This document shows positions 1,875 to 22,613 of a stretch of 25,386 nt of DNA, piece after piece. The stretch's first letter is position 1, and each line of letters opens with the position of its first letter. Under the pieces are notes generated by a model that worked only from the letters and a program-made list of their open reading frames with translations, was not told the origin of the DNA and made no database searches. Origin of the DNA: a virus; IMG/VR virus record IMGVR_UViG_3300037070_002095, positions 1 through 25,386 of that record, one strand, 5' to 3'. The position numbers and the translations under genes were made by a program.

Positions 1875-3194
1875 CTACGCGGCTTTAGCCTTGCCTCCCT
1901 TATTCTCCTTCGGCGCGGCAACCATCTTGTTTTCCTGCGGCTGCTCAACCGACTTCGCATCCTTATCAGTATCAATCCACGGTTCCGTTTTCTCGGTCCG
2001 CTTCTCAACCAGTCCTGCCTGTTCCGCCCAGCTAAGCGGAATCTCACCGCCTACGCCACAGCACAGCGAAACAGCCTTGTTAGAGTCAGTAGTCAGTTGC
2101 TTCTCAGCCGTCCAGTAGAGCCGCTTGTCGCTCGTCCACATCTTTGTCACTTGCTCATGCTCCTTGTTTGCCCATCGCTCAACGGTTGCTAGCAGCGCCT
2201 TTTCCAGCCGATCAAACTCAGTCTCAGGGGTGAGAGAATCGGCTAGTTGTAATGCCGCGTCTGACCGTGAGTGATAATAAACCTCGTCGTGCAGCAATCG
2301 GTCGATTTCCGTGGCCCATGAGTCAACGTCGCTACGGTCGCAGAACCTAGCCGCTGAACCAAACGCTTCCTTTAGCCCCGGCGTCGGATGCGCGATTGTT
2401 GGTATCCCCGCACACGCTGCCTCCACACCCACGCGCCCGTAGGATTCATAGTCGCTTGGCATCAGCAGGATACGCGTCCGCCGGAACACATCGCGCACGT
2501 CAGGATCGTTTTTCAGATGCGTCACGTTCGGCAGCCCGTAACAATTCTGCGTGTTACCCGTTTCGTCATAGAAAACGTGATGCTCGCTGTTCGAGGCTCG
2601 CGGACAAGCAACCTGATAGCCGTATCCGCCCTGCGCGGTGATGAAAGGTTGCAGCGGGAAGCGTTGGGCTAGTTCGTAGAAGATCGCCGCGCCCTTGCCG
2701 GAGGTAGGGTTGACTAGCGTTATCGCGTCGCCGCGCTCGCACTTGTAACGCTCCGGCTCAACCACTGGGTGAATCGTAATCTGATGACCTTCCCATTCTT
2801 GCGCCTCGGCAATCCACTCACTATTGAAAATGGCAAGCTGGCACTTGAGCGTGTTGACATGCCAGTAATCAAGCTGTGCCGAGTTGTGAACAAAGTGAGC
2901 AATAGGCTTCTTCGCGTCAAGCGCCAGTTGCATTGCCTGACTTGTTAAGTCAAGGTGTGTGACGAGTAGATCCTGCTCGTAGGCCAGATCAAGCAGCCAG
3001 CGTTGGCGATTGCGGCGGGGTGGTCTAACTACCTGAATCCCGTCAATGCCGTAAGGTGCCGTTGCCGAGCGGTCACAAACCACGATGCAGGAGTGTCCAC
3101 GGTCAACCAACGCGCGGAACGCCGCGTGTACAGTTGTCTCCGAACCAGCGTTGTGCTCGGGCGGGAAAAGGTGAAAGTAGCCGAGAATCTTCAT
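1875..3194 (-). CDS. GT4-like glycosyltransferase with head-protein-like C-terminal extension
   Basis: A 439-residue protein. Residues 1-340 form a GT-B glycosyltransferase: an N-terminal Rossmann start with the loop FPPEHNAGSE, and a C-terminal half with TSGKG (about 164-168), then SDYESYGRVGVEAACAGIP (about 247-265), the GT4 sugar-nucleotide loop in which the E of GVEAACAG is conserved. HPTPGLKEAFG follows. After about residue 350 comes a separate segment: KRLYWTAEK, then GGEIPLSWAEQAGL, then a Lys/Glu-rich tail to KAKAA. The 'LY.t.d......GgEIp..xAe..GL' pattern recalls, from memory, short proteins encoded beside phage connector genes. The gene sits among capsid genes in ATGA overlap with the upstream gene. 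The sugar and target are unknown; a virion or host-surface glycan is plausible. Confidence 0.8.
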   Translation of the reverse strand: MKILGYFHLFPPEHNAGSETTVHAAFRALVDRGHSCIVVCDRSATAPYGIDGIQVVRPPRRNRQRWLLDLAYEQDLLVTHLDLTSQAMQLALDAKKPIAHFVHNSAQLDYWHVNTLKCQLAIFNSEWIAEAQEWEGHQITIHPVVEPERYKCERGDAITLVNPTSGKGAAIFYELAQRFPLQPFITAQGGYGYQVACPRASNSEHHVFYDETGNTQNCYGLPNVTHLKNDPDVRDVFRRTRILLMPSDYESYGRVGVEAACAGIPTIAHPTPGLKEAFGSAARFCDRSDVDSWATEIDRLLHDEVYYHSRSDAALQLADSLTPETEFDRLEKALLATVERWANKEHEQVTKMWTSDKRLYWTAEKQLTTDSNKAVSLCCGVGGEIPLSWAEQAGLVEKRTEKTEPWIDTDKDAKSVEQPQENKMVAAPKENKGGKAKAA

Positions 3195-3691
3195 ACGTCA
3201 ATAATCGTATAGTACACTGTGACCTGTAGCGTATTAGCTGTATCTCCACCTGTAAAATCTCCACTAAAGCCGTTATCCGCTGAAACCAGAAACGGAGAGT
3301 TAGCAATATCATTTAAATCATAGCCAACACCCTCAACGGGAGATCCTGAGACGGCACCAAAAAACGGGGTCATCCACGCGACAACATCCGCTGGGCCTCC
3401 CCAGTCAAGGAAACCACTCGCGGACGCGGGCAGGCTGTGTAAAGCGCTACTACCTCCATGACGCAGGAACAGGGAAGGAAACACGGCGTCAAGGTTTTCA
3501 TAGTCAACAATAAGATGAAGCTTGTAAAAACCAGAGACAAGCCGGAGCAACCGCCCTACACCGGGGGATTCAACAACCTCAAGCGGCGTGGTTGGCAGTG
3601 CCTTGATCTGCGCGTCGGTTAGCTCAACCGTGCGCGAGAGCACCGTTACTACGCCCTCTGCTAACTGGTTCGCGGTAATCCCATCCGTCAT
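3191..3691 (-). CDS. Capsid decoration / head-associated protein candidate
   Basis: A 166-residue protein. It begins with a short helical segment, then IKALPTTPLEVVESPGVG (about 29-46), and ends with SADNGFSGDFTGGDTANTL followed by a VTVYYTIIDV terminus. The 'lpttp..vv..pG.gk' start and '..G..aNtl.vtvyy.iid' end recur in beta-rich phage proteins encoded just downstream of major capsid genes, which suggests a capsid-surface or structural role. No enzyme motif is present. It is coupled by ATGA to the genes on both sides. The function is inferred from this pattern and position. Confidence 0.55.
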   Translation of the reverse strand: MTDGITANQLAEGVVTVLSRTVELTDAQIKALPTTPLEVVESPGVGRLLRLVSGFYKLHLIVDYENLDAVFPSLFLRHGGSSALHSLPASASGFLDWGGPADVVAWMTPFFGAVSGSPVEGVGYDLNDIANSPFLVSADNGFSGDFTGGDTANTLQVTVYYTIIDV

Positions 3692-3981
3692 ATCAAACCC
3701 TCAATGTCATCGTCCGTCCGTGGCGCTACGTCAAACGTAAACGTGTTGCCGCTGATTACTCCCAGTCGCGTCTCGTTAAGTCCGTTACGGTAGATCAGGA
3801 TTGGCGGAGCGGTAAACATGAACACTGCGTTGCTCCCATTGATCGCCCCACTGGGTACCTCTCGCGTCCCGCCGCTTGAGCCGTCACTATCACCAGACGG
3901 CGGCACTTCAACGGCGGGCGTGTATGACACTGGGTAGGTAAACGACATGTTGGTTATAGCAAGCGGCCCCGTTGCTAACAC
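3688..3981 (-). CDS. Small structural protein with a phage 'PSGxINGxN' domain
   Basis: A 97-residue protein read from GTG 3981; an internal ATG at 3948 is the alternative start, and neither has a strong Shine-Dalgarno. After a Pro/Gly/Ser-rich linker (about 27-40) comes VPSGAINGSNAVFMFTAPP (about 42-60), then IYRNGLNETRLG and a TFTFDVAP segment near the end. This resembles a small beta domain often seen in phage structural proteins ('PsG.iNGsN..FtlsaaP......yrNG'), commonly attached to fibre or baseplate proteins. Here it stands alone just after the capsid gene, so it may decorate the head. It overlaps the next gene by ATGA. Confidence 0.55.
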   Translation of the reverse strand: MLATGPLAITNMSFTYPVSYTPAVEVPPSGDSDGSSGGTREVPSGAINGSNAVFMFTAPPILIYRNGLNETRLGVISGNTFTFDVAPRTDDDIEGLI

Positions 3982-4038: not shown

Positions 4039-5331
4039 CTAGCTATTTGCGCCAGCGTGGAGATCCATGCGGACGATTGCGGGCGGCCTGAACACTCCAA
4101 ACGCGGCCCGCAACTCCGCCAGCACCGCCACGAGGTTGCGAACAAAGTAGTCCTCAACACCATCGCTCATTCTGATAGTTGCCTGTTCGCGATCCCATAG
4201 CACCGCTTGCTTCGTGTCGCCAGTGTAGCCGGTGCCTTGAAACACGGCCTCGGATTCAACGACAATCTGACCCCAGAGCCGCTTCTGGCCCAACACCATT
4301 GGACCACCGAAGTAATAGCGATTCTCGTTGTCTTGGGTTAGATCCAGCGCTTCCCAATCAAAGGGGTTGAGAATAAACCCGCTAATTCGTTGTGCCCTGC
4401 CGATAACTCTCGCTTTAGTCAACGCCTTGCGGGTCGTAGTCAGCATGTTATCGTCAAAGCTTTGGATTGTGATGTTCGGCGTGTTGTCCAAGCCGAGGAA
4501 GTTCTCACCCGCGCCATTGCCCTTGATCATTTGTTCCTCAAGTTCAAGTTCAAGTCCAATGTTCAGGAAGTTGTCAATAAGCGTCTGAATCTGCGGCGCA
4601 TCGCTTAATGCTCTGCGAGTCACTGGAATCCAGTGCGCGATAGTCTTAACGCTCGTTGTCACCTTTTCCAGCGCAAGGGTTGATTGCGGCTTCAAGCCGT
4701 TGCCTGCCTGTTGAAAGGACGTTGGGCTAGTTGTCGCTTCAGCCACGGGCGCGGCGTTGCTGGTGTAGCCCGTAACACGCGGGAACTCGATCAGGTCACT
4801 GCCGGTACGGCCTACCGTTACCACGTCTCTGATGGTTAGCGGCTGAAACGGGAAGTCCACGAGAGGGGCATAATCCCGGCGCACCAACGCACCGGCTGAA
4901 GTAGCCGAAACGCCTGTGACGAGATCCTTAGCCTCAACTGCCGGGGATGAACCTACGCGCACTCCGTCAGGCGGAAAGCCGTTTGGGGCAATCGCGTGAA
5001 TCCATTCCTTGTATTCCTTAGATTCGGTGAAGCGATAGCCGAGGGACTTCCTGCCTGCTTCGCGCGGATCGTCCTGTTTGCCGTCGCCGTAGTTGGGTGT
5101 ATCGCTCGTTGAGTTCAGCGCGGTATTGATTGCCTCGTTGCGGGCACGAGCGGCTTGGTACTGCTTCGACTCCTCCAGCGAGGTGCTTAATTCCTCAATT
5201 CGCTTGCCACGCGCTTCTACTTCCGTTTTCTGCTCGCCTGTCAGCACTTCCTCGCCTTGCTTAATCCAGAAGTCCTTATCTACGGCAAGTAGCGTAGTCA
5301 ACTCCTTTGCGTTCTCTGCGATTGTCGGCAT
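4039..5331 (-). CDS. Major capsid protein, HK97 fold
   Basis: A 430-residue protein with a strong AAGGAG ribosome-binding site before ATG 5331. Residues 1-75 are helical and charged (EQKTEVEARGKRIEELSTSLEES), like the N-terminal delta domain that is removed by the prohead protease in HK97-type capsids. From about residue 125 the typical capsid order follows: SAGALVRRDYAP, then FPFQPLTIRDVVTVGRT, TSVKTIAHWIPVTRRAL, a long helix with ELELEEQMIKGNG near 265, ILNPFDWEAL, LWGQIVVESEA, and a VLWDREQATIRMSDG / YFVRNLVAVLAELRAAFGV end. The length is normal for the family. The gene directly follows the protease. It ends with TAG, which shows TAG is a real stop in this genome. Confidence 0.95.
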   Translation of the reverse strand: MPTIAENAKELTTLLAVDKDFWIKQGEEVLTGEQKTEVEARGKRIEELSTSLEESKQYQAARARNEAINTALNSTSDTPNYGDGKQDDPREAGRKSLGYRFTESKEYKEWIHAIAPNGFPPDGVRVGSSPAVEAKDLVTGVSATSAGALVRRDYAPLVDFPFQPLTIRDVVTVGRTGSDLIEFPRVTGYTSNAAPVAEATTSPTSFQQAGNGLKPQSTLALEKVTTSVKTIAHWIPVTRRALSDAPQIQTLIDNFLNIGLELELEEQMIKGNGAGENFLGLDNTPNITIQSFDDNMLTTTRKALTKARVIGRAQRISGFILNPFDWEALDLTQDNENRYYFGGPMVLGQKRLWGQIVVESEAVFQGTGYTGDTKQAVLWDREQATIRMSDGVEDYFVRNLVAVLAELRAAFGVFRPPAIVRMDLHAGANS

Positions 5332-5344
5332 GGTTCGAATCTCC

Positions 5345-6604
5345 TTAAACTTGCGCCAGCGCAGCTAATGCGACGCTATGTCGGCGCTGTGATTGAGTCC
5401 TAAGCACGCCCACGTTGATCGAGTCATCCGCTTTTTCCTTAGGCGGTGGTTCCGAGGCGGTTAGAAGCTGATCTAACGCGTCTCGCGCGGCCACGACTTT
5501 TGCCCGGTTAGAAGCTGAAAGTATGCGCCCTTCCTTGACTCGATTTTCATGGTTGCGCTGCATTTTTGTGGTGTGCTTCTCTAATGCGGATACCACATCG
5601 TCGAAGGACTCAAAGGAGCCGGATACCGATTCACCTTTGAGATAAAATTCATCGTCCGTGCTGTTCAAAAACTCTTCTATCTGCGCGAGGATTAGCGGCT
5701 GCATTGTTGGCCCATACTCGCTGATTACTTCGCTAACTTTCGCGCGCCAGTCAAAGGACGATTCACCAATTGACGGCGCATTCTTAGCTGATTCGGCAAT
5801 CTTGCAAATCACGCGACGAAAGGCAGATTCAATCTCCCATGTTGAGGGGGTTGTTTGAGCTAGTTGGTCAGCAAGCATTCCCTTGCCGGTAGCAATCTTT
5901 GCAGCGTTAGCCGCGCGGCATGACTTGCCATGCTCAGACGCTTCCTCAATCTTCTTAAATTGAGCCAGACAGGTCAGACAGCCATAACCGCCTGTTGGTA
6001 TCGTCTTGCCGTTGATCTCAACAGTGCCGAAAGGAATACCGCCCTCGTCCTTCACCGCCGTTGCCGCCGCTCGTTTGTTCATCGGCGCGGTCACAATCGA
6101 GTCCTCGATAGCCTCAACCTTTTTTAGCAGCCGGATACGATTAAACTTTTGCGCCTTGACCTGCATCGCCGGAAGCGCGTCAGCCTTCACGTACTTTGGC
6201 AGTTCCGCTTCATAGTCTTTTGCGTCAATATAGCTATACTCAGTTGGTGCATAGCCAAAGGAGAAACCGACCGTCTTGCCTGCGTCCATCCGCTCTTTAG
6301 CTTTAGTGCGAATTGCCTGTGCGTCAGGCGTTGAGTGAAATTGTGACCGGACAAACCACCCGTGATCGTCCTCGTGCGCCTCAACGGGAAACCCTACCGC
6401 CTTATCAAAGTCCCAGTCGTGAGAGTGGGCCGTAAACCCAGAGTGCAGGTATTCGTCAAGCGTGTCCGCGAATGCGCCCTTAAGAACAATGTCCCCGCCC
6501 TCGTCAATGACGCCGTAAACTGAACGATAGCCCTCAATGGTTCCCGACCCTTCGTCGTTTAGCTTGAGATCCTTAAGCGGCGTGAACTTGCGCTCAATGT
6601 TCAT
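5345..6604 (-). CDS. Prohead protease (HK97 gp4-like) with zinc-knuckle-like insert and long C-terminal part
   Basis: A 419-residue protein. Residues 1-185 match HK97-family prohead proteases: GTIEGYRSVYGVIDEGGDIV (about 22-41), the catalytic His in TAHSHDWD, and the catalytic Ser in KTVGFSFGY (about 129-137). It would cleave the capsid delta domain during maturation. Usual family members are about 180-250 residues. Here residues about 208-234 hold C-x2-C ... H-x3-C (GCLTCLAQF, then EHGKSC), which could bind zinc. Roughly 180 further residues follow, including a charged helical end, perhaps a scaffold-like portion. ATG 6604 has no Shine-Dalgarno and lies 17 nt after a strong terminator. The capsid gene follows. 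Confidence 0.88.
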   Translation of the reverse strand: MNIERKFTPLKDLKLNDEGSGTIEGYRSVYGVIDEGGDIVLKGAFADTLDEYLHSGFTAHSHDWDFDKAVGFPVEAHEDDHGWFVRSQFHSTPDAQAIRTKAKERMDAGKTVGFSFGYAPTEYSYIDAKDYEAELPKYVKADALPAMQVKAQKFNRIRLLKKVEAIEDSIVTAPMNKRAAATAVKDEGGIPFGTVEINGKTIPTGGYGCLTCLAQFKKIEEASEHGKSCRAANAAKIATGKGMLADQLAQTTPSTWEIESAFRRVICKIAESAKNAPSIGESSFDWRAKVSEVISEYGPTMQPLILAQIEEFLNSTDDEFYLKGESVSGSFESFDDVVSALEKHTTKMQRNHENRVKEGRILSASNRAKVVAARDALDQLLTASEPPPKEKADDSINVGVLRTQSQRRHSVALAALAQV

Positions 6605-6620
6605 GGTTTCATTGGCCCAT

Positions 6621-6665
6621 AAAAGACGAAAGCCCGCCAGACTCCATTTAAGGAATCCAGCGGGC
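6621..6665 (-). terminator. Strong intrinsic terminator closing the accessory cassette
   Basis: The arms 6632-6645 and 6652-6665 pair over 14 bp (three G-U wobbles in the RNA) around a 6-nt loop. On the minus strand the stem is followed by TTTCGTCTTTT (6631-6621). The stem starts with GCCCGC and ends with GCGGGC. It lies after the 58-residue gene (stop at 6689) and 17 nt before the prohead protease start, so it should end transcription coming from the accessory cassette. Confidence 0.85.
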
Positions 6666-6688
6666 GGTAGCAGTCGTTAAGTGTTAGC

Positions 6689-6865
6689 TTACGCTGTCTC
6701 TTGACCCGTAGTCAGCTTATCAATTCTCTGAGCAAGTGTTAGCAACTCGCGGCGAATCCGTTGCAACTCCCTTTGTAGAAACGTCTTCTCGTCCACCTTA
6801 AACGATAGCTCAATCTTCCGGGGCGGCGGTGCGTTATATTCGCGCTTCGGCAAAGGAGAATCCAT
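6689..6865 (-). CDS. Small basic coiled-coil protein (58 aa), unknown
   Basis: A 58-residue protein from ATG 6865 to TAA 6689. It starts MDSPLPKREYNAPPPRK and then forms one long charged helix with a heptad-like pattern (FLQRELQRIRREL, then LAQRIDKL), so dimerisation through a coiled coil is likely. No Shine-Dalgarno is visible; a promoter-like sequence ends 9 nt before the ATG. The gene is followed by the strong terminator at 6621-6665. A DNA-, RNA- or protein-binding role is possible, but no family is recognised. Confidence 0.65.
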   Translation of the reverse strand: MDSPLPKREYNAPPPRKIELSFKVDEKTFLQRELQRIRRELLTLAQRIDKLTTGQETA

Positions 6866-6874
6866 CAGTCCCGG

Positions 6875-6905
6875 AGTTTAACACAGGTTTGCTATTCATT
6901 TGCAA
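6875..6905 (-). promoter_or_regulatory. Possible promoter for the 58-aa gene, close to its ATG
   Basis: On the minus strand TTGCAA (6900-6905) and TAAACT (6875-6880) are separated by 19 bp, and the -10 ends 9 nt before ATG 6865. It resembles the leaderless promoter layout seen elsewhere in the window, but the -35 is weaker and the spacer longer. It is therefore only a candidate. Confidence 0.35.
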
Positions 6906-6914
6906 TAGTTTCGT

Positions 6915-7109
6915 TCACTTACGGTCAAAGTCAAAGGTAATCTGTACGCCAAGCGCCCACCATAGGTGGTCTAGGGCGTGATTGCCAACATCAAGATCGT
7001 CGTTGTCAATATCACAAATCGGCTTACCATCGACAGTGATACGCCAACCGCCCTCGCCGTCTCTGACCTTGCCCTCTTCTTCAATTGCGGTAAAGTAAAC
7101 GCTTCTCAT
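6915..7109 (-). CDS. Hypothetical acidic protein (64 aa)
   Basis: A 64-residue protein in ATGA overlap with the upstream gene. It has a WRITVDGKPICDIDNDDLDVG section (about 22-42) and ends ITFDFDRK. It is acidic, likely a small mixed alpha/beta domain, and has no signal peptide or membrane segment. It is the penultimate gene of the cassette; no family is recognised. Confidence 0.6.
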   Translation of the reverse strand: MRSVYFTAIEEEGKVRDGEGGWRITVDGKPICDIDNDDLDVGNHALDHLWWALGVQITFDFDRK

Positions 7110-7378
7110 TTTTCACCGTCTGCTAATAGACGATCTTTCAGTACATGTAACCTGGCCGGACATGCAGGCTTCTGAGGCTCAAGATTCCCGCAAAACTTGC
7201 ACATCATGAGGTCATAGCTTATCGCGTAGGGTCGCCTGCGCGATGAGACGCCCTGACCTTCACCATGCTGCCGGCTGAACTCACAGGCGAGCACGGAAAC
7301 GGATAAGTTGTTCCCGCGCACTAATGCCAGCAGCGTTGCCGTCTCAGACTTGCTCAGTGCTTCGGTTGGTTTAATCAT
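7106..7378 (-). CDS. Hypothetical protein with CxxC (90 aa)
   Basis: ATG 7378 is chosen because it forms an ATGA overlap with the end of the GT11-like gene, giving 90 residues; an in-frame start at 7399 would intrude further into that gene. The N-terminal half is helical (SKSETATLLALVRG). The C-terminal half has MMCKFCGN, then a further Cys in PACPARLHVL, a partial zinc-binding set. No family is recognised. It is translationally coupled on both sides within the glycan cassette. Confidence 0.6.
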   Translation of the reverse strand: MIKPTEALSKSETATLLALVRGNNLSVSVLACEFSRQHGEGQGVSSRRRPYAISYDLMMCKFCGNLEPQKPACPARLHVLKDRLLADGEK

Positions 7379-8148
7379 TGCCAGTGAACTATACGCCAAT
7401 TACTTTCATAAATATCATCAGCGGTAATGGTCGTGTAGCGCGGCCCAAACCACGGCGATGGGGCAACCACTTGCTTGTCAGCCTGATTCGCCAGCACTGC
7501 CGCAATCGCGCTGAAACTACTGTTGCCGATGATAAAGTGAGCGCACGATTTCATCCGTTTAAAGTCAGCCAGGTAATCGCCCCCTTCGCTGTAGTCGACT
7601 CGATTACCAAACATCTGTTTTGCCGCGTCGATGTCATCACTGAACACGAGGAAGCGTTGGGCTGAGCCGAAGTGGGCCATTGCCGGTTCGTAGTAGCGCA
7701 AGTCAAGACGTGGGTGATAGGCATCGTCGTAGTCGCCGAGACGGACGTGAATCGCGCAGTAGTCGTTCAACGGCGGCTCATCGTGCATCCTGAGTTGCCA
7801 GCGAACCTCGTCAATCGCACGCTCAAAATAGCGCGTCGATTGAAAGTGGCCGGTGATATTCCAGTTCCCCGCTGAGAGTGCCACGTCATGGTAGCCCCAG
7901 TCGATAGGCTTGTCGGTGAAGTTTAGGCCGTCAGGGATCGCGGGTAGCGGATTAACCAGATGCTTGTAGATGTCGATGTCTTCGGTTGAGCCAAACGCGT
8001 CTCGGTGCCATGTATTGCGCCAGAGGGGGAAGACGGGAGTCAGGTTGTTGCGGCGAGCAATGCCGAAGACGGCGGCGACTTGGTACGCGCCATTCGCGAA
8101 GCGGCCATAGTTGCCAATGCTGAGGTTTGTCAAATAGCCGCGTGTCAT
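7375..8148 (-). CDS. GT11-like alpha-1,2-fucosyltransferase
   Basis: A 257-residue protein with the GT11 layout: GRFANGAYQVAAVFGIARRN (about 15-34, the 'GrlgNqmfqyaaa..lA' start), WHRDAFG, then IHVRLGDYDD (about 134-143, the H-x-R-x-G-D-Y motif thought to bind GDP-fucose), FLVFSDDID (about 167-175), and FIIGNSSFSAIAAVLA (about 206-221), the conserved 'GNSSFSwWaAwL' end motif. These motifs are diagnostic of bacterial alpha-1,2-fucosyltransferases and relatives. The length is near the family norm (about 280). The preceding and following genes overlap by ATGA. Fucose transfer to a glycan is the likely reaction; the acceptor cannot be read from sequence. Confidence 0.85.
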   Translation of the reverse strand: MTRGYLTNLSIGNYGRFANGAYQVAAVFGIARRNNLTPVFPLWRNTWHRDAFGSTEDIDIYKHLVNPLPAIPDGLNFTDKPIDWGYHDVALSAGNWNITGHFQSTRYFERAIDEVRWQLRMHDEPPLNDYCAIHVRLGDYDDAYHPRLDLRYYEPAMAHFGSAQRFLVFSDDIDAAKQMFGNRVDYSEGGDYLADFKRMKSCAHFIIGNSSFSAIAAVLANQADKQVVAPSPWFGPRYTTITADDIYESNWRIVHWQ

Positions 8149-8549
8149 TTCACCTGAAATTCACCCTCAAGCAAATTGCCACCATGTTGTTTCATTAATT
8201 CACCGCATCGCTCATATATCACGGTCAAGGCATTGATCAGCTTTTCCAAGTCTTCCCTGCCGTGCATGTGCAAGTAACCGTCTTCATCTCCGAAAACATA
8301 ATGCGAGCATCCGTCCCACTTCACTGAACCTGAAACCATTCGAGCGGCAAAGTCAAACTCCTCAGTGTCATCCTCTGAAGACTTACTACCCGCGCGGGAA
8401 TAGACCTTTGTGCCGTCTTCGGCAACGCCAATGACCTCAGCCGCGAAAAAGTCAATCGCCACGCTTGCGTACTCGCCTATTTCGTAGCGAACCGTGACGC
8501 CGAACTCGTCCCCTACCTGTTCAACGAGCATCTCTTTTACGATACTCAT
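8145..8549 (-). CDS. Hypothetical acidic protein (134 aa)
   Basis: ATG 8549 is preferred (134 residues) because it overlaps the stop of the methyltransferase gene by ATGA; a GTG at 8555 is just upstream in frame. The protein is acidic and mixed alpha/beta, with GSVKWDGCSHYVFGDEDGYLHMHG at about 75-98 and a C-terminal helix (EDLEKLINALTVIYER). No catalytic motif or known family is recognised. Its place between a methyltransferase and a fucosyltransferase suggests a link to the glycan pathway or a passenger gene. Confidence 0.6.
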   Translation of the reverse strand: MSIVKEMLVEQVGDEFGVTVRYEIGEYASVAIDFFAAEVIGVAEDGTKVYSRAGSKSSEDDTEEFDFAARMVSGSVKWDGCSHYVFGDEDGYLHMHGREDLEKLINALTVIYERCGELMKQHGGNLLEGEFQVK

Positions 8550-9172
8550 AACCACCCCCGATTAAAATACAACTCAACATCCACCAACGGATCACCCTGA
8601 ATCTCGGGAAACAGGTGGCGGTAATCTTCATGGACCATCACCAGGTTGCCAGTGTGACACAGTAGAAAGTATCCCTTCGTTATACCCAACAGGGTCATAG
8701 CAAAATAGTTCGCGCCGCCGTCGTCGTTGAACTTTGAGTAATCAGGTGTCAAGCTGGAGTCAATCTCGACAATAACAATCTTCGGCTTGGCCTTCAGTCC
8801 GTCGAATATCTCGTAATCGTGGCCATCCGTGTCGATACTCAGCAAATCGCAAGCCTCATCAACAAACGCGTTGATATTGTTCCCATCTACGTAGCAGCAC
8901 TGGTGACGCACGGGTAATCTGAGATTGTCCCAGTTCTCCTTCGATTTCAGGTAAAGATCGTAATCAGACTCAACGAACAGTCCTGACCATCCATGCTGTT
9001 GGAGAAGCAATGCGGTATTAGAACAGAAGCGTCCATCTGCCCCACCAATCTCCACCGCATGGCCCTTGTTGACGGTAAAGAACATACGATTCAGACACTC
9101 AAGCAAAATTCCTTCTTCCCCGTTCTGGCTGAACACGTAATCGCGCGCGTACTGTTTCAGGAAGCTAAGCAT
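8546..9172 (-). CDS. FkbM-like SAM methyltransferase (second copy)
   Basis: ATG 9172 is chosen since it overlaps the stop of the 52-residue gene by 8 nt; the 208-residue product starts MLSFLKQYARDY. It has FSQNGEEGILLECLNR (about 14-29), the SAM-binding loop AVEIGGADGRFCSN (about 39-52), GLFVESD (end of beta 2), and the FkbM-type core LLSIDTDGHDYEIFDGL (about 111-127) followed by IVIVEID. FkbM-family enzymes O-methylate sugars or polyketides. Beside glycosyltransferases it most likely methylates a sugar. It differs strongly from the other FkbM gene at 9323-9943, so the two probably have different substrates. Confidence 0.8.
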   Translation of the reverse strand: MLSFLKQYARDYVFSQNGEEGILLECLNRMFFTVNKGHAVEIGGADGRFCSNTALLLQQHGWSGLFVESDYDLYLKSKENWDNLRLPVRHQCCYVDGNNINAFVDEACDLLSIDTDGHDYEIFDGLKAKPKIVIVEIDSSLTPDYSKFNDDGGANYFAMTLLGITKGYFLLCHTGNLVMVHEDYRHLFPEIQGDPLVDVELYFNRGWL

Positions 9173-9323
9173 CAGGTTTGTTTTCAATCTCACGCTCGGA
9201 AGACAATCCAAGCATCGCCATGCGAATTGGACCGTTAGCGCGAAGGTCGTCAATAATCATTTCCACGATCGCCCGCTTTGCTTCTTCGCTTTTCAGCATT
9301 GCCAGAAATTCATCACTGCCCAT
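9165..9323 (-). CDS. Small helical protein (52 aa) between two methyltransferases
   Basis: A 52-residue gene whose ATG (9323) shares one base with the TAA stop of the upstream FkbM gene, and whose TAG stop overlaps the next ATG by 8 nt. The product is charged and helical (DEFLAMLKSEEAKRAIVEM, then IDDLRANGPI). The tight overlaps on both sides and sustained coding-like composition argue that it is real. No family is recognised. Confidence 0.65.
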   Translation of the reverse strand: MGSDEFLAMLKSEEAKRAIVEMIIDDLRANGPIRMAMLGLSSEREIENKPDA

Positions 9324-9943
9324 TAACTGTTCAACCTTTCCACGTAATCATCGTCAAGCGTCTCTATCGTCATCGTCCGTCGCCATGACTCCCAACAAAA
9401 GGGCCAGCGCCACTCGATTCGATGTGTCAGTTTCAGCCTACCCGCAATCCCACTATACCACGCCGCGTAAGGCTCTGGCGCAAGTTGATGAAATTGCACT
9501 TGCAGGTTGCAAATGCGTTTGTGATAACCATGCGTGATGATATGGTCCAACAGCACGTACTCTGCACCTTCGATGTTGATTTTGACCAGCGCGATTTCGT
9601 CATGCTTAGCCAGCAAGTCGTTGATGTCGAAGCACTGAACCTCGCTTGTCGGCTCCTCGTAATGCGACGTGTAGTAGAACGCGCCACCGACTAGCAGCGT
9701 GCCCTGTTCGATCCATGCAGCTTGTTTGATTATCTCACCATCGTAACCGTCAATTGCATCAGTTGGTTCGATGACGATGGGCGTGCAGCCGTAGCGGCGC
9801 TTAATCTCGTTGGCCCACTCGCCACGGTATGCGCCGATGTCGATTACTATGTCGTTCGGTTGCAGGTCGTATTCGTAGCGCAGATGTTCGAGGTTGCGAG
9901 ACTGCCAGATGGCTTGTGATTCTTCGTTGAGGGTTACGCGCAT
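9323..9943 (-). CDS. FkbM-like SAM methyltransferase (first copy)
   Basis: A 206-residue protein with the SAM-binding loop DIVIDIGAYRGEWANEI (about 31-47), an acidic end of beta 2 in PIVIEPTD, and the FkbM core motif IALVKINIEGAEYVLLDHI (about 117-135), where family members read 'lKiDiEGaE..vL.g'. Its DIND segment ahead of the core is also typical. It is probably a sugar O-methyltransferase acting with the flanking glycosyltransferases. It begins at ATG 9943 and ends in TAATG with the next gene. An upstream ORF in another frame runs about 140 nt into it (see the 9801-10106 entry). Confidence 0.82.
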   Translation of the reverse strand: MRVTLNEESQAIWQSRNLEHLRYEYDLQPNDIVIDIGAYRGEWANEIKRRYGCTPIVIEPTDAIDGYDGEIIKQAAWIEQGTLLVGGAFYYTSHYEEPTSEVQCFDINDLLAKHDEIALVKINIEGAEYVLLDHIITHGYHKRICNLQVQFHQLAPEPYAAWYSGIAGRLKLTHRIEWRWPFCWESWRRTMTIETLDDDYVERLNS

Positions 9944-10106
9944 TAATAATTAACACCTCGATTAGTAGATCGATAGCCGTCCTGATAGTCATACCCGCAT
10001 TGACTCCCGCCCTTATCGTTTCAAGGCGATCTAGGTTCGCTTCTAGCCACTCAAGACGTTCACTGTCAGAGTGTTCTCGCTTCACATACGCCTCGGCTCT
10101 ATTCAT
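9801..10106 (-). CDS. Hypothetical helical protein, long overlap with FkbM gene
   Basis: ATG 10106 is chosen for its ATGA overlap with the upstream glycosyltransferase gene and the GGAACG upstream; an ATG at 10118 is also in frame. The first 60 residues look coding: a charged helix (SERLEWLEANLDRLETIR) and then AGMTIRTAIDLLIEVLIINA. After that the frame lies inside the FkbM gene and the sequence becomes basic and irregular. A real gene probably ended near 9944 and lost its stop, or the C-terminal 45 residues are tolerated. The overlap of about 140 nt is the odd feature. Confidence 0.5.
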   Translation of the reverse strand: MNRAEAYVKREHSDSERLEWLEANLDRLETIRAGVNAGMTIRTAIDLLIEVLIINARNPQRRITSHLAVSQPRTSALRIRPATERHSNRHRRIPWRVGQRD

Positions 10107-10930
10107 CTTGCGTTCCATTCGTTATCACGTCTCCGATGATGATGAAACAGCACTGGATAATCATCATCCGCATACTCCGGCAGCTTCTCATAGGTGAACG
10201 CGCCGTCATTGTACGACGCTGGCCAATAGTGGAGCTTAATCCCTTCCCTGTACGCCAGCGTTGTCAGTATCGCCTGATCGTGCCGATGCTCACGGAACTC
10301 GGGATGGTTCGGTGCAATGCTCGGGCTATCATCAATCAGTCGCCCGCCGTCGAACAGGCACCACTTGAGCCACTCAGCAACGAATTGGCGCGAGTAGTCA
10401 GAGACACGGAAGAAAATTACCGAGGCTTGGCATTGTTTGCCAAAACGATCCCACGTCTTTTCTTGAATATATGAATGGTCTTCCGGCAGCGCGCCTAAAA
10501 GCCCGAACGGCCACACCGCCTCAACCACATCCCGCTTGCACCAGTGCGCGTGTTCCCAGTTGTTGCCGAATAGAAAGATGTCGCTGTCCATGCGGTCGAT
10601 GATGTGCTGCACAGGGGCGATGAACTCAATGCCCGCGTCGGCATAGACCAACGTCCCGCCTTGCGAACAGTGGTTCATCGCTTCAAGAATAATAAACGGC
10701 TTCCACGCCCAAAAACCACAACCACGCGGATTAGCGTCCATCAGTTCCAATAACTCAAACTGTGGCCCGTCAGCCCAACCTGAAAACTCAATTGCGTGAC
10801 GATTATAAATGCACTCGCTGGCCCATTGGCCTTGCGCGTTATCAACACCATTACGACCCGCGCTTTCAACACACAGTTCCGCCGCTCGACTCATGCTTTC
10901 ATCGCTGAAGGTGACGAGATGGATAGTCAT
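10103..10930 (-). CDS. GT-A-type glycosyltransferase (nucleotide-sugar transferase-like)
   Basis: ATG 10930 (275 residues) follows AAGAGG and overlaps the stop of a 29-residue membrane peptide by ATGA. The start MTIHLVTFSDESM is a first beta strand. Residues 67-73 read RGCGFWA, then WKPFIILEAMN, and TLVYADAGIEFI (about 91-102) carries the DxG/DAG acidic site expected in GT-A enzymes of the group that reads 'rG.GyW.WKPyiIl......gd.llY.DaG'. HRHDQAILTTLA (about 219-230) is the typical 'DQ.il..la' helix. It likely transfers a sugar to a glycan; donor and acceptor are unknown. Confidence 0.78.
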   Translation of the reverse strand: MTIHLVTFSDESMSRAAELCVESAGRNGVDNAQGQWASECIYNRHAIEFSGWADGPQFELLELMDANPRGCGFWAWKPFIILEAMNHCSQGGTLVYADAGIEFIAPVQHIIDRMDSDIFLFGNNWEHAHWCKRDVVEAVWPFGLLGALPEDHSYIQEKTWDRFGKQCQASVIFFRVSDYSRQFVAEWLKWCLFDGGRLIDDSPSIAPNHPEFREHRHDQAILTTLAYREGIKLHYWPASYNDGAFTYEKLPEYADDDYPVLFHHHRRRDNEWNAR

Positions 10931-11016
10931 GCGCCTCTTCGTTCCTTCAGTAGCCACCACAAAAAGCAGTACATAAACCCAGCTCCCACTAAAACCCCGT
11001 CAAGAAATCCCCTCAT
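10927..11016 (-). CDS. 29-aa single-span membrane peptide
   Basis: A tiny gene from ATG 11016 to TGA 10927. It has a good initiation site (GCGAGGTTGAG just before the ATG) and an ATGA overlap with the glycosyltransferase start at 10930. The peptide begins MRGFLDGVLVGAGF, continues as one hydrophobic stretch with YCFLWWLL, and ends with the basic KERRGA, so an N-out/C-in single membrane span is likely. It could anchor or help the transferase that follows, or serve mainly to couple translation. Confidence 0.55.
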   Translation of the reverse strand: MRGFLDGVLVGAGFMYCFLWWLLKERRGA

Positions 11017-11017
11017 C

Positions 11018-11053
11018 TCAACCTCGCTGAAATGTGATGAGATAGGTAGTCAT
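11018..11053 (-). pseudogene. Truncated 5' end of a glycosyltransferase gene (MTTYLITFQRG)
   Basis: This 11-codon frame starts at ATG 11053, in ATGA overlap with the 28-residue gene, and ends at TGA 11018. It reads MTTYLITF, against MTIHLVTF at the start of the transferase gene at 10930. The DNA also matches: 11024-11053 repeats 10902-10930 with a few substitutions and one 1-nt indel. It is best read as the leftover start of a duplicated or replaced glycosyltransferase gene. Confidence 0.55.
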
Positions 11054-11136
11054 AGCAATAACCACTCGATGGCAATAGCGACAACTAACCGCGCGGCAAT
11101 CAAGTCTAGCAAGTCAACCCTATTACGGCGCATCAT
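11050..11136 (-). CDS. 28-aa hydrophobic peptide
   Basis: A tiny gene from ATG 11136 to TGA 11050 with the same initiation sequence (GCGAGGTTGA before the ATG) as the 29-residue gene downstream. The peptide starts MMRRNRVDLLDL and then has a hydrophobic stretch ending AIAIEWLLL. A single short membrane helix with a basic N-terminus is possible. No family is recognised; it may be a leftover or a coupling peptide. Confidence 0.4.
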   Translation of the reverse strand: MMRRNRVDLLDLIAARLVVAIAIEWLLL

Positions 11137-11148
11137 TTCAACCTCGCA

Positions 11149-11370
11149 TCACTCACCTTCTGGCGGTGCAAATTGCCGATAATATCTCAAGCGACTCCTA
11201 AGGACAGATACAACCGTAATACCAAACTTGAACTCCATCCATTTGACTTTCAGCCATCGGCCTTTTTCTGACGCTTCAAGCAGTTCTTCTTCAGTGTCAT
11301 AGACACCGGGCAGTCCGCTACACATGAAGCAAGCAGGATTCATTGACGGATGCGGGATACGCGGCATCAT
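11149..11370 (-). CDS. Hypothetical protein (73 aa)
   Basis: A 73-residue protein in ATGA overlap with the GT25-like gene. It starts MMPRIPHPSMNPACFMCSGL with a CxxC, continues with an acidic helix (TEEELLEASEKGRW), and ends basic (VLRSRLRYYRQFAPPEGE). No family is recognised. It belongs to the cassette operon by tight coupling. Confidence 0.55.
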   Translation of the reverse strand: MMPRIPHPSMNPACFMCSGLPGVYDTEEELLEASEKGRWLKVKWMEFKFGITVVSVLRSRLRYYRQFAPPEGE

Positions 11371-11984
11371 TTAAGCCTATCATCACTCGCCTCAAATATA
11401 GACGTGTAATCATCCTCCCGCTGCCATATCGAACTGTACCTCGGCCTCTGCCACGCAACCATCGGCGCGACGATGAACGCGTTGAGTGACGGCAACCTGC
11501 TCGACAACCAGTTGTCAAACATCAACTCATCAAAGCTCGGTTGCCCCTCAAGGATTCGTCTGACACAACGCTTGTGGTAGGCAATCGCGTGCGTGGTCCA
11601 AGCTGCGCGGATTCTGAACAGGTGTTCGCTGCGCCTCTCAGGTTGCGGTTCATCCCCATTGTTCCAGCACAGCAGATTCGCGCCAAGATACAACACGTCC
11701 CAATCGCTTGGTAACTCGCTGATAGCCTGTTCCAGATGGTCTAACCTGCGCCACAGCACATCATCTTCAACGTGCAGCAGCGCATTAGCGTTCGAGTCAA
11801 ATAGAAAGTCCAGCAGGATATTGCGCTCGCTGTGGCTGAACGATTGATGCGGACCAATCTCCCTGACCGCATGGTACGGTTCGACTGTTAAGCCAACGCG
11901 TTGACACTCCGCGTGGCCTAGCGCGTACTCAGCAGGGTCGGCGGTGAGCATGATGCGGCGGTGGAAGTGATGGGACCAGTTCAT
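11367..11984 (-). CDS. GT25-like glycosyltransferase
   Basis: A 205-residue protein with the pattern of GT25/LPS-type transferases: GPHQSFSHSERNILLDFLF (about 44-62), ALLHVEDDVLW (about 68-78, in which EDD is the metal-binding acidic motif), DWDVLYLGANL (about 93-103), and AWTTHAIAYHKRCVRRIL (about 127-144, family 'g...a.ay.iS....kkll'). These enzymes add hexoses, often to lipopolysaccharide cores or protein glycans. It is shorter than many relatives (about 250) but carries all the main motifs. It starts in TAATG coupling with a 48-residue membrane protein and ends in ATGA with the next gene. Confidence 0.75.
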   Translation of the reverse strand: MNWSHHFHRRIMLTADPAEYALGHAECQRVGLTVEPYHAVREIGPHQSFSHSERNILLDFLFDSNANALLHVEDDVLWRRLDHLEQAISELPSDWDVLYLGANLLCWNNGDEPQPERRSEHLFRIRAAWTTHAIAYHKRCVRRILEGQPSFDELMFDNWLSSRLPSLNAFIVAPMVAWQRPRYSSIWQREDDYTSIFEASDDRLK

Positions 11985-12130
11985 TAGCGTTGCTCTTCCA
12001 GTACCGCAATGCGCTGTTCGATGCTATCGATCTGGCCGTTTCTCATGTTAGCCCCGAGAAAGTGGGCAATCAGCAAAGAGACGATCCAGAACCAAATCCA
12101 GCCGTGCCTACAAGGCTGATCGGCATTCAT
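11984..12130 (-). CDS. 48-aa membrane protein with coiled-coil tail
   Basis: ATG 12130 follows GTGAGGGG, and the TAA stop shares a base with the ATG of the GT25-like gene. The N-terminal part has one membrane helix (GWIWFWIVSLLIAHFLG, about 10-26). The rest is a charged heptad-like helix (IDSIEQRIAVLEEQR). It is a likely single-pass membrane protein with a cytoplasmic or periplasmic coiled coil, which might anchor the cassette's enzymes at the membrane. A small phage membrane protein of other function is equally possible. Confidence 0.65.
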   Translation of the reverse strand: MNADQPCRHGWIWFWIVSLLIAHFLGANMRNGQIDSIEQRIAVLEEQR

Positions 12131-12204
12131 CCCCTCACCCACTCGACCAACCGTTGTAGCCATGACTTGCGTAGTCGATAATACAACTCAGCATTCGCGT
12201 TCAT
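12127..12204 (-). CDS. 25-aa micropeptide, MNANAELY family, copy 1
   Basis: ATG 12204 overlaps the regulator's stop by ATGA and follows AAGGAGACA (12210-12218). The peptide begins MNANAELYYRLRKSW and ends in a short amphipathic basic helix (LQRLVEWVRG); its TGA overlaps the 48-residue gene. A second copy at 16789-16842 begins MNANAELYRRLCKPW. Of the first 15 codons, 6 differ only synonymously and 3 change the residue. This indicates the peptide itself is conserved. Confidence 0.6.
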   Translation of the reverse strand: MNANAELYYRLRKSWLQRLVEWVRG

Positions 12205-12383
12205 TTTGATGTCTCCTTTGTAAGTAACCATATCAAGATCTTGGCCAGCGTCTCACCGTCCGGTACCCGACCCTGCTCCAATCGCATCAAAGTTGCCGCG
12301 CCAATACCAATCTCCGCACCTAGTTCGCGCAGGCTTAATTCACTTATTACCCGGTAGCGATTTAACACATAGCCAAGTTTCAT
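12201..12383 (-). CDS. XRE-family HTH regulator heading the accessory cassette
   Basis: A 60-residue protein from ATG 12383, a lone helix-turn-helix domain: MKLGYVLNRYRVISELSLRE, then LGAEIGIGAATLMRLEQGRV (about 20-39), where the Cro/C1 pattern 'lr..lg.s...isriE.G' is plain. There is no room for another domain, so it acts as a small Cro-like repressor or activator. A promoter whose -10 ends 7 nt before the ATG lies just upstream, so it probably has a leaderless mRNA and may control its own operon of glycan genes. Confidence 0.8.
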   Translation of the reverse strand: MKLGYVLNRYRVISELSLRELGAEIGIGAATLMRLEQGRVPDGETLAKILIWLLTKETSK

Positions 12384-12390
12384 GGATAGG

Positions 12391-12420
12391 ATGCTACTAC
12401 AGGCGGGATACAAGTGTCAA
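12391..12420 (-). promoter_or_regulatory. Leaderless promoter of the accessory cassette
   Basis: On the minus strand TTGACA (12415-12420), an 18-bp spacer, TAGCAT (12391-12396) and 7 nt lead to ATG 12383. No Shine-Dalgarno is present. It lies within 16 nt of the MuF-like stop codon, so the cassette's transcription begins right at its left boundary. Confidence 0.65.
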
Positions 12421-12435
12421 GAGAAGGAACGCGGG

Positions 12436-13332
12436 CTAGTCCTGCACGTAGACATGAAAGCAACGGCAATTGTCGTAGCCTTCACACTCAGGATTAGGCG
12501 CGGGCGTGAGATCGTCTTGGTTGCCAGCTTCCTCACCATCGGCGGCGGCGCATGGCCCACAGACGTTGTTGTCGAGGAGCGCTGAGTATTCGACTCTACC
12601 CCACTCGTCGCTCCGCTGCTCCGCTTCATAGCCTCGACCTAGTGAGATGGTCCTGTTCGCCAGTCCCGTAGCCGTGCGGTCGATGTAACTGACTGACCCG
12701 GCGCTAATCTCGTTCTGTGTTGAAGTGATGAGTGCTGCGCCAATCGTGCCTAGCATGGCAAGCCTCGATGCGGCAGCGATGATGCGTGCCTGCGTGTCAT
12801 TAGCTACACGGCTGGTTGCCACATCGGCGAGCAGGTCCAGTTCACCAAAGTCATCAACGCCGTCACTCAGGTCCGTGGCTTTGACTACGCTTAGTTCCCG
12901 TTGGACTAACTGCCGCCCATCATTGAACGTGTCGAGGAGCAGCACGCGCAATCGGTTGCGCTGTGTTGCGGGAACGTCCACGGCCAGCGTGTGATAATCA
13001 GCCGGGTTGAGATCGGCGAGCTGGCCCAGCGCATCGTTGATCATTAGCTGGCGCATGGCGAGTAGTTGCGTGGTGAGACGCAGCTTGTTGCTGTCCTGCG
13101 CTTGAGCCACCCCTTTGACTGCGATTGCCTCGGCTGGTCGAGGTTGCCTACGTAGCGTTAGGCCATCATACTCGACTGACTTAGCGGGCAGGTGGTTCAG
13201 GCCAAGATGCGTGTAAAATTGCGTTGCCTTATCTTCGCCGTACAGGTTGATAAGCCGTTGCCAGCCGTTCGCGTGGCGATGAGCTAGCGCGGCGTCCAGT
13301 TTTAGTTGCAGGATTTTAGCTTGCAGACTCAT
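12436..13332 (-). CDS. MuF-like minor head protein (head morphogenesis)
   Basis: ATG 13332 (298 residues, MSLQAKILQLK) is chosen; it overlaps the upstream small gene by 17 nt. The long N-terminal two thirds are helical. The last 50 residues show the Mu gpF/SPP1 gp7 signature: YSALLDNNVCGPCAAADGEE (CxxC), then NPECEGYDNCRCFHVYV (C...CRC). These proteins are injected or minor head proteins needed for head assembly next to the portal. Its position after the portal fits. Downstream, the accessory cassette separates it from the protease, which normally follows directly or nearly so. Confidence 0.85.
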   Translation of the reverse strand: MSLQAKILQLKLDAALAHRHANGWQRLINLYGEDKATQFYTHLGLNHLPAKSVEYDGLTLRRQPRPAEAIAVKGVAQAQDSNKLRLTTQLLAMRQLMINDALGQLADLNPADYHTLAVDVPATQRNRLRVLLLDTFNDGRQLVQRELSVVKATDLSDGVDDFGELDLLADVATSRVANDTQARIIAAASRLAMLGTIGAALITSTQNEISAGSVSYIDRTATGLANRTISLGRGYEAEQRSDEWGRVEYSALLDNNVCGPCAAADGEEAGNQDDLTPAPNPECEGYDNCRCFHVYVQD

Positions 13333-15124: not shown

Positions 15125-16536
15125 CAATACACCCCCAACTCTCGTTTCAGATTTGCCGCTCGACAAGCCATCGCCCCGGCGACAAATGAATCAGGCGGAT
15201 GGCCTGAACCGCTTAAATCGTTGTTCGTACAGTAGCGATGCTCGGCTTCGCAGTAGTCAATCACCGGGCTGATAATACCACCGTTTTCAATCAGCGCAAT
15301 ATAATCGCTGAATACGTCGGCTCGTTGCTGACCTGTAAGTAGCACCCCCTCGGCCGCCACAGTCAGGTAATCGTCAACCATGTTGCCTACGCCGGTCTTG
15401 TCGTGACATGCTTCGCCGCCGTAGTGCTCAACCCGCTCATTGAACTTGCGAATCATCATGGGCCACGGCATCCGGCCTAGCCTGAGCCACGCGACCCGGC
15501 GCATCGGTCTAACGTCCACGCGCCAAGTGTCGATAACGGTCCAGTCACGCTCTTTGGCCCAATCAGCCCCGTGGGCATAGACAGCGAACTGTTCCGGCTC
15601 CTCGATGATGATGGGCCTGCCCGCTCCGCCGGTGAACACGCCCAGGTCACGCTGAAAGCATTGTGTCACCTTCTCAGGCAGGATAGCGCGGCCTTCCGGT
15701 GATGGCTCCTGTAGGTCATATTCAGCCGCCCACATGCTGGCTGTCACTTCACCACGCTTGGATTCAATCTCCTCTTGGGTCAGCCAACCGCCGGGTTGCG
15801 CGCTCGTCTCCTTCCAACACCACTCGTGGACCGGCCAGCCATTCTGTTTAGCTCGCTTCTTAATCTCGGTGAATGTGCCGTCGGGGTAGTGATGGGTTGA
15901 CGAGGCTACTGTCTGTTTGGGAACGGTTGCCGTAGACATTGGCTGGCCCATTGCAGCATCAAAAATAGCGAGATCCATTTCGTCCGTTTCATCACATCTA
16001 AGGCGACTCGGGTGCGGCCCTCGCGCTGATTTTGAGCTAGCCATGAGCGCTGTAACCAATCCACCTGATCGGTACCTTGTACGCCGCTGCACGTTCTCCT
16101 CACCACTGGACCACTTTTGCAGGTACTCCAACACACGTGTTGACTGCTCGCCTGAACCGCCGAGGATTGTTACTTCCGCGCCCAGCGTGTCGGCTTCAAT
16201 ATGGCCCAGCAAAGCAAGCAGGTACGACTTGCCGCCAAACCCGCGTGACGCTTGCCACACAGTTACGTTATGTCTGGCGAAATAGGCGTCACTGAAGGCC
16301 CTAAATGGAGTAGTGTGATTCTCACAGACTTGCGTGTCAGGAATGGTTATGCCGAATGCGGTGAGTAGGTATTGCTTTAGCTCATCATCCGTTTGCGGAT
16401 TCGCTGGTTTCGAGCTGCCTGGTTGGGAGTGGTTGACCTGCGACTGCTTCGAGAAGTCGAACTGTCTTGTCCGCCATGACCCCGTGCAGGGTTGCCATCT
16501 CACCGGCTGGCTGTTGCGTAACATACGACTCATCAC
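15124..16536 (-). CDS. Terminase large subunit
   Basis: The frame allows up to 470 residues from ATG 16536, but the recognisable protein begins near residue 50. VWQASRGFGGKSYLLALLG (about 92-110) is the Walker A-type site, of the divergent kind usual in terminases. RCDETDEMDLAIFDAA (about 179-194) is Walker B with the catalytic Glu. The nuclease half has AHGADWAKERDWTVIDTW (about 311-328), CHDKTGVGNMVDDYL, and DSFVAGAMACRAA near the end, giving the acidic cluster. It is the ATP-driven DNA packaging motor and nuclease. The first 50 codons lie inside the small terminase gene in another frame, so the true start is unclear. Confidence 0.9.
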   Translation of the reverse strand: MMSRMLRNSQPVRWQPCTGSWRTRQFDFSKQSQVNHSQPGSSKPANPQTDDELKQYLLTAFGITIPDTQVCENHTTPFRAFSDAYFARHNVTVWQASRGFGGKSYLLALLGHIEADTLGAEVTILGGSGEQSTRVLEYLQKWSSGEENVQRRTRYRSGGLVTALMASSKSARGPHPSRLRCDETDEMDLAIFDAAMGQPMSTATVPKQTVASSTHHYPDGTFTEIKKRAKQNGWPVHEWCWKETSAQPGGWLTQEEIESKRGEVTASMWAAEYDLQEPSPEGRAILPEKVTQCFQRDLGVFTGGAGRPIIIEEPEQFAVYAHGADWAKERDWTVIDTWRVDVRPMRRVAWLRLGRMPWPMMIRKFNERVEHYGGEACHDKTGVGNMVDDYLTVAAEGVLLTGQQRADVFSDYIALIENGGIISPVIDYCEAEHRYCTNNDLSGSGHPPDSFVAGAMACRAANLKRELGVY

Positions 16537-22223: not shown

Positions 22224-22327
22224 GTAACGCGGAGTCTACCTTTAGACGTGCGAGAGAAGAGGGCGCGGTCGAAACGGCTCAACGTACCCAGAGGGTGGAT
22301 ACCGTTCACGCCATTGGTTCCAGATAG
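22220..22327 (+). CDS. Possible 35-aa gene at the operon end
   Basis: GTG 22220 overlaps the upstream stop (GTGA), and AAAGGAG lies 8-10 nt before it. The peptide is charged (STFRRAREEGAVETAQRTQR). It overlaps, in antisense, the end of the GIY-YIG-like gene by 86 nt, which lowers its credibility. Confidence 0.3.
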   Translation: MSNAESTFRRAREEGAVETAQRTQRVDTVHAIGSR

Positions 22328-22613
22328 GCCGACGTTGAAATCTGTCAGCTAGCACGATAATAATGCTTGCCACTTGTGCTTCAGTTAAATCAAACCACTC
22401 GCCGCGAACCTGAAAAGGCGCAAGCTCTTCGTGGATCTCTTTCTCGATCCATTCATCTTCAAACGAAAGTGCGCTTTCTTTAGTCGTCACTGAAAACACT
22501 AAGTCCAACGGCATTGGATTACCACAGGCAAGTGTTGATAGACGTTTCTTTGGATTTTCCGCTACTCCGATTTTGACATAGTTCGTACCACGCATCCGGA
22601 TGAGGTAGATCAC
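22242..22613 (-). CDS. GIY-YIG-like (T5orf172/MUG113-type) nuclease-like protein
   Basis: GTG 22613 overlaps the stop of the ribbon-helix-helix gene (GTGA) behind AAGGAG. The 123-residue product has IYLIRM (about 2-7), NYVKIGVAENPKKRLSTLAC (about 11-30), GNPMPLDLVF and, after the glutamate-rich helix with DEWIEKEIHEELAPF, RGEWFDLT (about 70-77). This 'YlI....vKIG.s.np..Rl..l..gnP..l' and 'E...h..f...r..GEWF' series defines the T5orf172/MUG113 branch of the GIY-YIG superfamily. A DNA-nicking or homing role is possible, but activity is not shown. Confidence 0.75.
   Translation of the reverse strand: MIYLIRMRGTNYVKIGVAENPKKRLSTLACGNPMPLDLVFSVTTKESALSFEDEWIEKEIHEELAPFQVRGEWFDLTEAQVASIIIVLADRFQRRPIWNQWRERYPPSGYVEPFRPRPLLSHV

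Follow-up and report, generated by a model that had tools for sequence, protein, structure and literature searches.

The 25,386-bp stretch analyzed here (positions 1 to 25,386 of IMG/VR virus record IMGVR_UViG_3300037070_002095, a fragment that we call the window) carries on its minus strand genes for, in order, a terminase, a portal protein, a MuF-like protein, a block of enzymes at 6605 to 12435, an S78 prohead protease, an HK97-type capsid protein, two small open reading frames (ORFs), a GT4-family glycosyltransferase (GT), and a connector. The original prediction, made from the letters of this DNA, had described the block as a glycan cassette with an XRE regulator, three GT genes, two FkbM-like methyltransferase genes, and several small ORFs; using Pfam, comparison with relatives, and a structure model of the GT that we call GTx, we found all of these genes, on the minus strand, and the reading of the block as a glycan cassette was borne out (Table 1). 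Its inventory had missed a fourth GT, GT4, which lies apart from the others, downstream of the capsid gene. With GT4 included, the window appears to hold the split form of a widespread phage glycosylation module that is embedded in head genes and whose chemistry is predicted.

Table 1. Module genes, transcription signals, and flanking head genes in the window.
Feature	Position	Strand	Basis
GT25-like glycosyltransferase, first module enzyme	11367-11984	-	Family alignment, hidden Markov model (HMM) map; assigned via relatives
GTx, GT-A-fold glycosyltransferase	10103-10930	-	Structure model and relatives
FkbM2, FkbM-family methyltransferase, optional member	9323-9943	-	PF05050, 25.9 bits (cutoff, 22.7); TIGR01444, 38.1 bits (cutoff, 37.7)
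FkbM1, FkbM-family methyltransferase	8546-9172	-	PF05050, 25.1 bits (cutoff, 22.7); family alignment
GT11, alpha-fucosyltransferase family	7375-8148	-	PF01531, 49.8 bits (cutoff, 23.9), E 4e-13; phrog_2644, E 8e-36
GT4, GT-B glycosyltransferase with C-terminal domain of ~95 amino acids (aa), downstream part of split module	1875-3194	-	PF00534, E 5e-14
Small conserved protein	8145-8549	-	phrog_33479, E 7e-8; 71% identity to L005 homologue
Small conserved protein	7106-7378	-	37-43% identity, most split-layout relatives
Small protein, gene end just before hairpin	6689-6865	-	Weak homologues in L010, L011, L012
XRE-type helix-turn-helix regulator	12201-12383	-	PF01381, E 3e-5, 24.3 bits (cutoff, 23)
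Promoter-like site, TTGACA-18-TAGCAT (10/12 letters)	12391-12420	-	
Terminator-like hairpin, 14-bp stem then T tract, just before protease start	6632-6665	-	
MuF-like head protein, upstream flank	12436-13332	-	PF04233, E 0.002, under cutoff; family alignment
Prohead protease S78, flank	5345-6604	-	PF04586, E 6e-12
HK97-type major capsid protein, candidate acceptor	4039-5331	-	PF05065, E 2e-35
Two small ORFs between capsid gene and GT4, further candidate acceptors	3191-3691 and 3688-3981	-	

By profile and motif, the window GT11 belongs to the GT11 fucosyltransferase family: its HxRxGDY motif is intact (HVRLGDY), and H.R.GDY is invariant across the family alignment. Transfer of L-fucose is itself predicted. 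The window GT25 had no Pfam match, and a member of its family in locus L116 matches PF01755 below threshold (E 5e-4; 20.5 bits versus a cutoff of 24). GTx also had no Pfam match, and searches of PDB sequences with GTx and GT11 returned nothing useful. An AlphaFold2 model of GTx built from 38 homologues reached a predicted local distance difference test score (pLDDT) of 88.9, and in a Foldseek search of the PDB its best matches were the GT-A enzymes XXYLT1, LARGE1, WbbM, blood-group GTA/GTB, and LgtC, with E values of 6e-7 to 3e-5 and moderate template modeling (TM) scores of 0.42 to 0.56. An earlier model made from only 8 sequences was discarded (pLDDT, 38.8). As modeled, GTx is a GT-A-fold glycosyltransferase; the model gives the fold and not the donor, the linkage, or the exact family.

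An IMG/VR search with the protease identified 11 relatives of the window. In every relative with coverage of the region, GT25, GTx, FkbM1, and GT11 lie in the window order between the MuF-like and protease genes, and GT4 follows the capsid gene; FkbM1 was found in nearly all of the covered relatives with this split layout. The block had been proposed to be a discrete insert in this phage, recognizable by its presence or absence in related phages. However, no empty site was found in the lineage, where every covered close relative carries the enzymes in the same order, so we rejected a recent insertion and consider the core enzymes a trait of the lineage. The module is absent from more distant capsid-protein relatives (L029 to L036, MW202444, and, at 44% capsid protein identity, mycobacteriophage Phrann), which therefore points to gain or loss at the level of the lineage. 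The proposal that the MuF and protease genes are normally adjacent held up, since they are close neighbors in phages that lack the module or carry it in one piece (MW202444; L047, MuF 2549/protease 2559).

Scans of viral contigs found 119 relatives with GT11 and 523 with GTx (the latter in IMG/VR), from which 80 loci each were kept for HMM mapping. Among the 114 distinct loci with GTx (distinct meaning non-identical GTx DNA, so that close relatives are counted separately), 87 hold all four GTs, and in 87 of 87 these phage-encoded enzymes are kept together with structural genes in the fixed order GT25-GTx-(FkbM2)-(FkbM1)-GT11-GT4. FkbM2 is present in 19 distinct loci and follows GTx in every one, in both of the layouts in which the module occurs. 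In one layout the module is contiguous, with the capsid gene directly upstream, and in the other, that of the window, it is split around the protease and capsid genes; both lie within HK97-type head genes. The minimal form reads capsid-GT25-GTx-GT11-GT4-connector, with approximately 95 to 185 bp from the capsid match to GT25 and 33 to 54 bp from GT4 to the connector. A head-gene block is the context wherever the flanks are long enough, and two different head backbones are represented. In the GT25, GTx, and concatenated trees, all 22 split loci form one clade (support, 0.995 to 1.0), and in the GT11 tree the clade of split loci takes in 8 other loci. Homing-endonuclease-like genes also occur within the module, at L004:4635-5372 and L011:5437-6252 (GIY-YIG/NUMOD3 and HNH/NUMOD4, by Pfam) and at L047:6699-7205 (by eye).

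A genome scan with GTx led to contigs in two Bacteroidota metagenome-assembled genomes, L047 (Saprospiraceae) and L048 (Taibaiella), which carry GT25-GTx-FkbM1-GT11-GT4, in the same order, after a capsid gene. Both have the contiguous layout and a head backbone unlike that of the window: their portal, MuF, and capsid proteins had no tblastn match to those of the window. The contigs are either integrated prophages or binned free phages. GTx was present in 9 of 395 Bacteroidota genomes, and as far as short loci show, only the L047 genome has it in a phage module. No isolate phage in the searched collection carries the module, as judged by a GTx search. The recurrence of the same four GTs in a fixed order in more than 100 distinct phage sequences and two head backbones, with no isolate in that collection, suggests that the module is common in nature. 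We did not find it described among the open-license papers that we searched; virion glycosylation of phages is already known, but the breadth and conservation of this module are unusual.

The GT4 proteins of the two layouts differ at their C termini. All covered split-layout GT4s have an extension consisting of a small domain and a repeated ENK motif, and this extension was not seen in the contiguous-layout GT4s, which are approximately 330 residues long. The C-terminal part resembles a 76-residue stand-alone protein encoded between the capsid and connector genes of the module-less phage MW202444 (L041:15608-15838), with a score of 17.6 bits versus a maximum of 6.4 in 200 shuffles and an hhalign probability of 88%. 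The simplest reading of these sequences is that GT4 was fused to a protein already resident in the head block. A similar relationship to Phrann gp7, which occupies the same slot, was not demonstrable (0.4 bits, below the best shuffle). In addition, GT4 distances correlate with capsid and portal distances (r of 0.91 and 0.94), at the level of capsid versus portal (r of 0.91), whereas the other GTs reach only 0.69 to 0.76, all values being uncorrected for shared ancestry. Because GT4 carries a head-block-like domain and tracks the capsid and portal distances most closely, we infer that it is the enzyme nearest to the acceptor. Other phages also encode lone GT-B enzymes immediately or a short distance downstream of the capsid gene, namely, in the module-less relative L034 (at 6430-7305, immediately after the capsid gene) and as TurkishDelight gp20. 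Many split-layout relatives also have, between GT4 and the connector, two large proteins of 538 to 975 aa (L004:15811-19575 and L011:14310-19666) that had no Pfam match and no clear PHROG assignment and for which the window, L019, and L024 have no counterpart.

Fucosylation, which had been part of the original prediction, is backed by genes for sugar supply in relatives. In most split-layout relatives, a GDP-L-fucose synthase gene (fcl) adjoins GT11 (NF047922; E 4e-136, 453 bits, below the strict equivalog cutoff of 500). In L013, the only locus taken from a portal search with a single sequence, a GDP-mannose dehydratase gene (gmd; TIGR01472, 508 bits versus a cutoff of 415) and then fcl directly follow GT11. 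The gmd and fcl products convert GDP-mannose to GDP-L-fucose, the expected donor for GT11. The L013 module also contains an additional true GT25 (PF01755, E 6e-17) and an additional methyltransferase, at 15279-16417.

The original prediction had also made the block a self-contained transcription unit, with a promoter beside the MuF stop and a terminator at its end, and these two elements fared differently. The hairpin, at 6665-6632, is the strongest terminator-like site of the region, and each of the 15 distinct junction sequences that we compared has a hairpin and T tract in this position. Compensatory changes are numerous, for example, at pair 2 from the loop (C-G/T-A) and at pairs 10 to 12 (C-G/G-C), where pairs were counted in single folds, because automatic alignment misaligned the hairpin arms, and the register is approximate where stem lengths differ. 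The window had no match in Rfam. The predicted hairpin is a real conserved element, terminator-like in form, and it would probably separate expression of the enzyme block from that of the protease-capsid-GT4 block. The promoter-like letters are likewise present, with the XRE ATG approximately 8 nt beyond them, so that the transcript is possibly leaderless. However, such sites are no commoner in the region than in shuffles (7 versus 9.0 ± 3.1), and this one is not conserved, since relatives carry other sequence and small genes after the MuF stop. The site is particular to the window, in a stretch that is variable among relatives, and of the self-contained transcription unit only the half that concerns the hairpin is supported. 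An XRE homologue lies at the same place in some of them, in reversed orientation in L024. In L028, the place of the XRE gene after the MuF gene (approximately 2666-2800, by eye) is taken by another small gene, DNA-binding-like and with a promoter-like site of its own. Elsewhere, the window encodes a D5_N/DUF5906 primase-helicase-like protein (23033-24076, minus strand) and, by eye, a protein resembling a GIY-YIG/T5orf172-type nuclease (22242-22613).

We propose, with a probability of roughly 0.6, that the module specifies a late, head-coupled pathway by which a virion protein receives a glycan that is fucosylated and probably O-methylated. In this pathway, the enzymes would be made late, together with the head proteins. 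GT4, encoded near the capsid gene and in the window fused to a head-block domain, would start or anchor the glycan on the capsid protein or a head accessory protein; the two ORFs between the capsid gene and GT4, which had no PHROG match, are further candidates. GT25 and GTx would extend the glycan, GT11 would add L-fucose from GDP-fucose (self-made in many relatives and, in the window phage, made by the host or encoded outside the fragment), and the FkbM enzymes would O-methylate its sugars. The finished glycan would be displayed on the virion surface, where it could change adsorption, stability, or recognition. A virion protein is the most likely target because two different backbones both keep the module within their head genes, because its minimal form has no other genes, and because phage precedents exist. 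A more far-reaching version, which we hold tentatively and at slightly less than even odds, is that the head block of many uncultured tailed phages, some apparently infecting Bacteroidota, has dedicated capsid glycosylation as a core component of fixed gene order, with GDP-fucose self-made in one branch and the initiating GT4 tethered by its fused domain, making it a phage counterpart of the autonomous capsid glycosylation of chloroviruses.

Several points weigh against this proposal. The module is known here from its genes, so that glycan, acceptor, and activity are all predicted; GTx and GT25 have no assigned specificity; and the distance correlations that single out GT4 ignore shared ancestry. 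Late expression alone may account for the adjacency to the capsid gene, fcl and gmd are absent from the window (though this is a 25-kb fragment), and the sequences scanned for the module were for the most part viral contigs.

The original prediction had placed the glycan on either the virion or the host surface, and the evidence favors the virion. The enzymes could instead alter the surface sugars of the infected cell (O-antigen or capsule), for example, blocking superinfection or reducing the sticking of virions to debris, since the GT11, GT25, and GT4 families also work in surface polysaccharide loci and Bacteroidota genomes contain GTx-related genes that lie outside the module, in one case near an fcl homologue. 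We consider this unlikely because no membrane or lipid-carrier steps (flippase, polymerase, or lipid-carrier enzyme) were recognized in the module, which in its minimal form comprises four soluble-looking GTs flanked by capsid and connector. Tyrosine integrases (0 of 14 records) and serine recombinases (2 of 15) were also rare in records that may be incomplete, which argues against lysogenic conversion in most of these phages. That the glycan is built on tail or receptor-binding proteins rather than on the head is less probable again: in mycobacteriophages both the capsid and the tail tube are modified (PMC11600133), and the large proteins between GT4 and the connector of many split-layout relatives could be such targets, but the window, L019, and L024 lack them, and minimal modules are flanked by capsid and connector genes only.

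Some viruses encode GTs that attach diverse glycans to DNA (Pyle 2024, as cited in PMC12619734), and the GTs of the module might hypermodify phage DNA bases with a glycan. This is very unlikely, because the thymidylate synthase/hydroxymethylase family is absent from all 15 long module records and C5 methylases are rare (4 of 15), so that the module shows no conserved association with base-modifying enzymes; a location within head genes would also be unexpected. Tet/JBP proteins were found in 0 of 15 records, but no positive control matched, and this absence is not usable. We give the least credence to the picture of a moron-like insert that has its own promoter and terminator, is expressed independently of the late genes, and is dispensable to the phage. 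The promoter-like site and regulator at the 5' end, the hairpin at the 3' end, and the presence in relatives of XRE or other small genes in the corresponding position would fit it, but the promoter is not conserved, the enzymes are in all covered relatives, so that the absence from near relatives expected of a moron was not seen, and the GT25, GTx, and concatenated trees unite the split loci.

To our knowledge, phage virion glycosylation has been documented in few cases. The module supplies named genes for testing, along with fucose as the likely sugar and a set of candidate acceptors, and virion glycosylation by these enzymes, if true, bears on how phages tune adsorption, stability, and recognition.

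Among known systems, Streptomyces phage TurkishDelight gp20 is a GT4-type glycosyltransferase encoded between capsid and tail genes and approximately 31% identical to the window GT4, but it consists of tandem GT4 domains and stands without the other module enzymes. The T4-like cyanophages S-SM2, S-SCSM1, and P-TIM68 have GT11 beside GT25 or nucleotide-sugar epimerase genes, and P-TIM68 has a GTx homologue adjoining a GT11-like gene. In contrast to the module, these clusters have no capsid genes in the stretches examined and no fixed GT25-GTx-GT11-GT4 order, and identities are 26 to 39%. In cluster O and Corndog-type mycobacteriophages, according to PMC11600133 and PMC11256854 (both citing Freeman 2023), tandem GTs beside an O-methyltransferase modify the capsid and tail tube. 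Mycobacteriophages were not among the tblastn matches of GTx, GT11, or GT4 (E 1e-5), and the present module differs from theirs in that its four GTs form a fixed set, with GT11/GDP-fucose genes, located within the head block. Chlorovirus PBCV-1 infects eukaryotes and has a jelly-roll rather than an HK97-type capsid, and the present case is a prediction from genes; the sugar logic of PBCV-1 is nevertheless alike, in that the virus encodes GMD and GMER for the synthesis of GDP-L-fucose, several of its own GTs take part, and the glycan on its major capsid protein contains fucose and a methylated capping sugar (PMC5408694).

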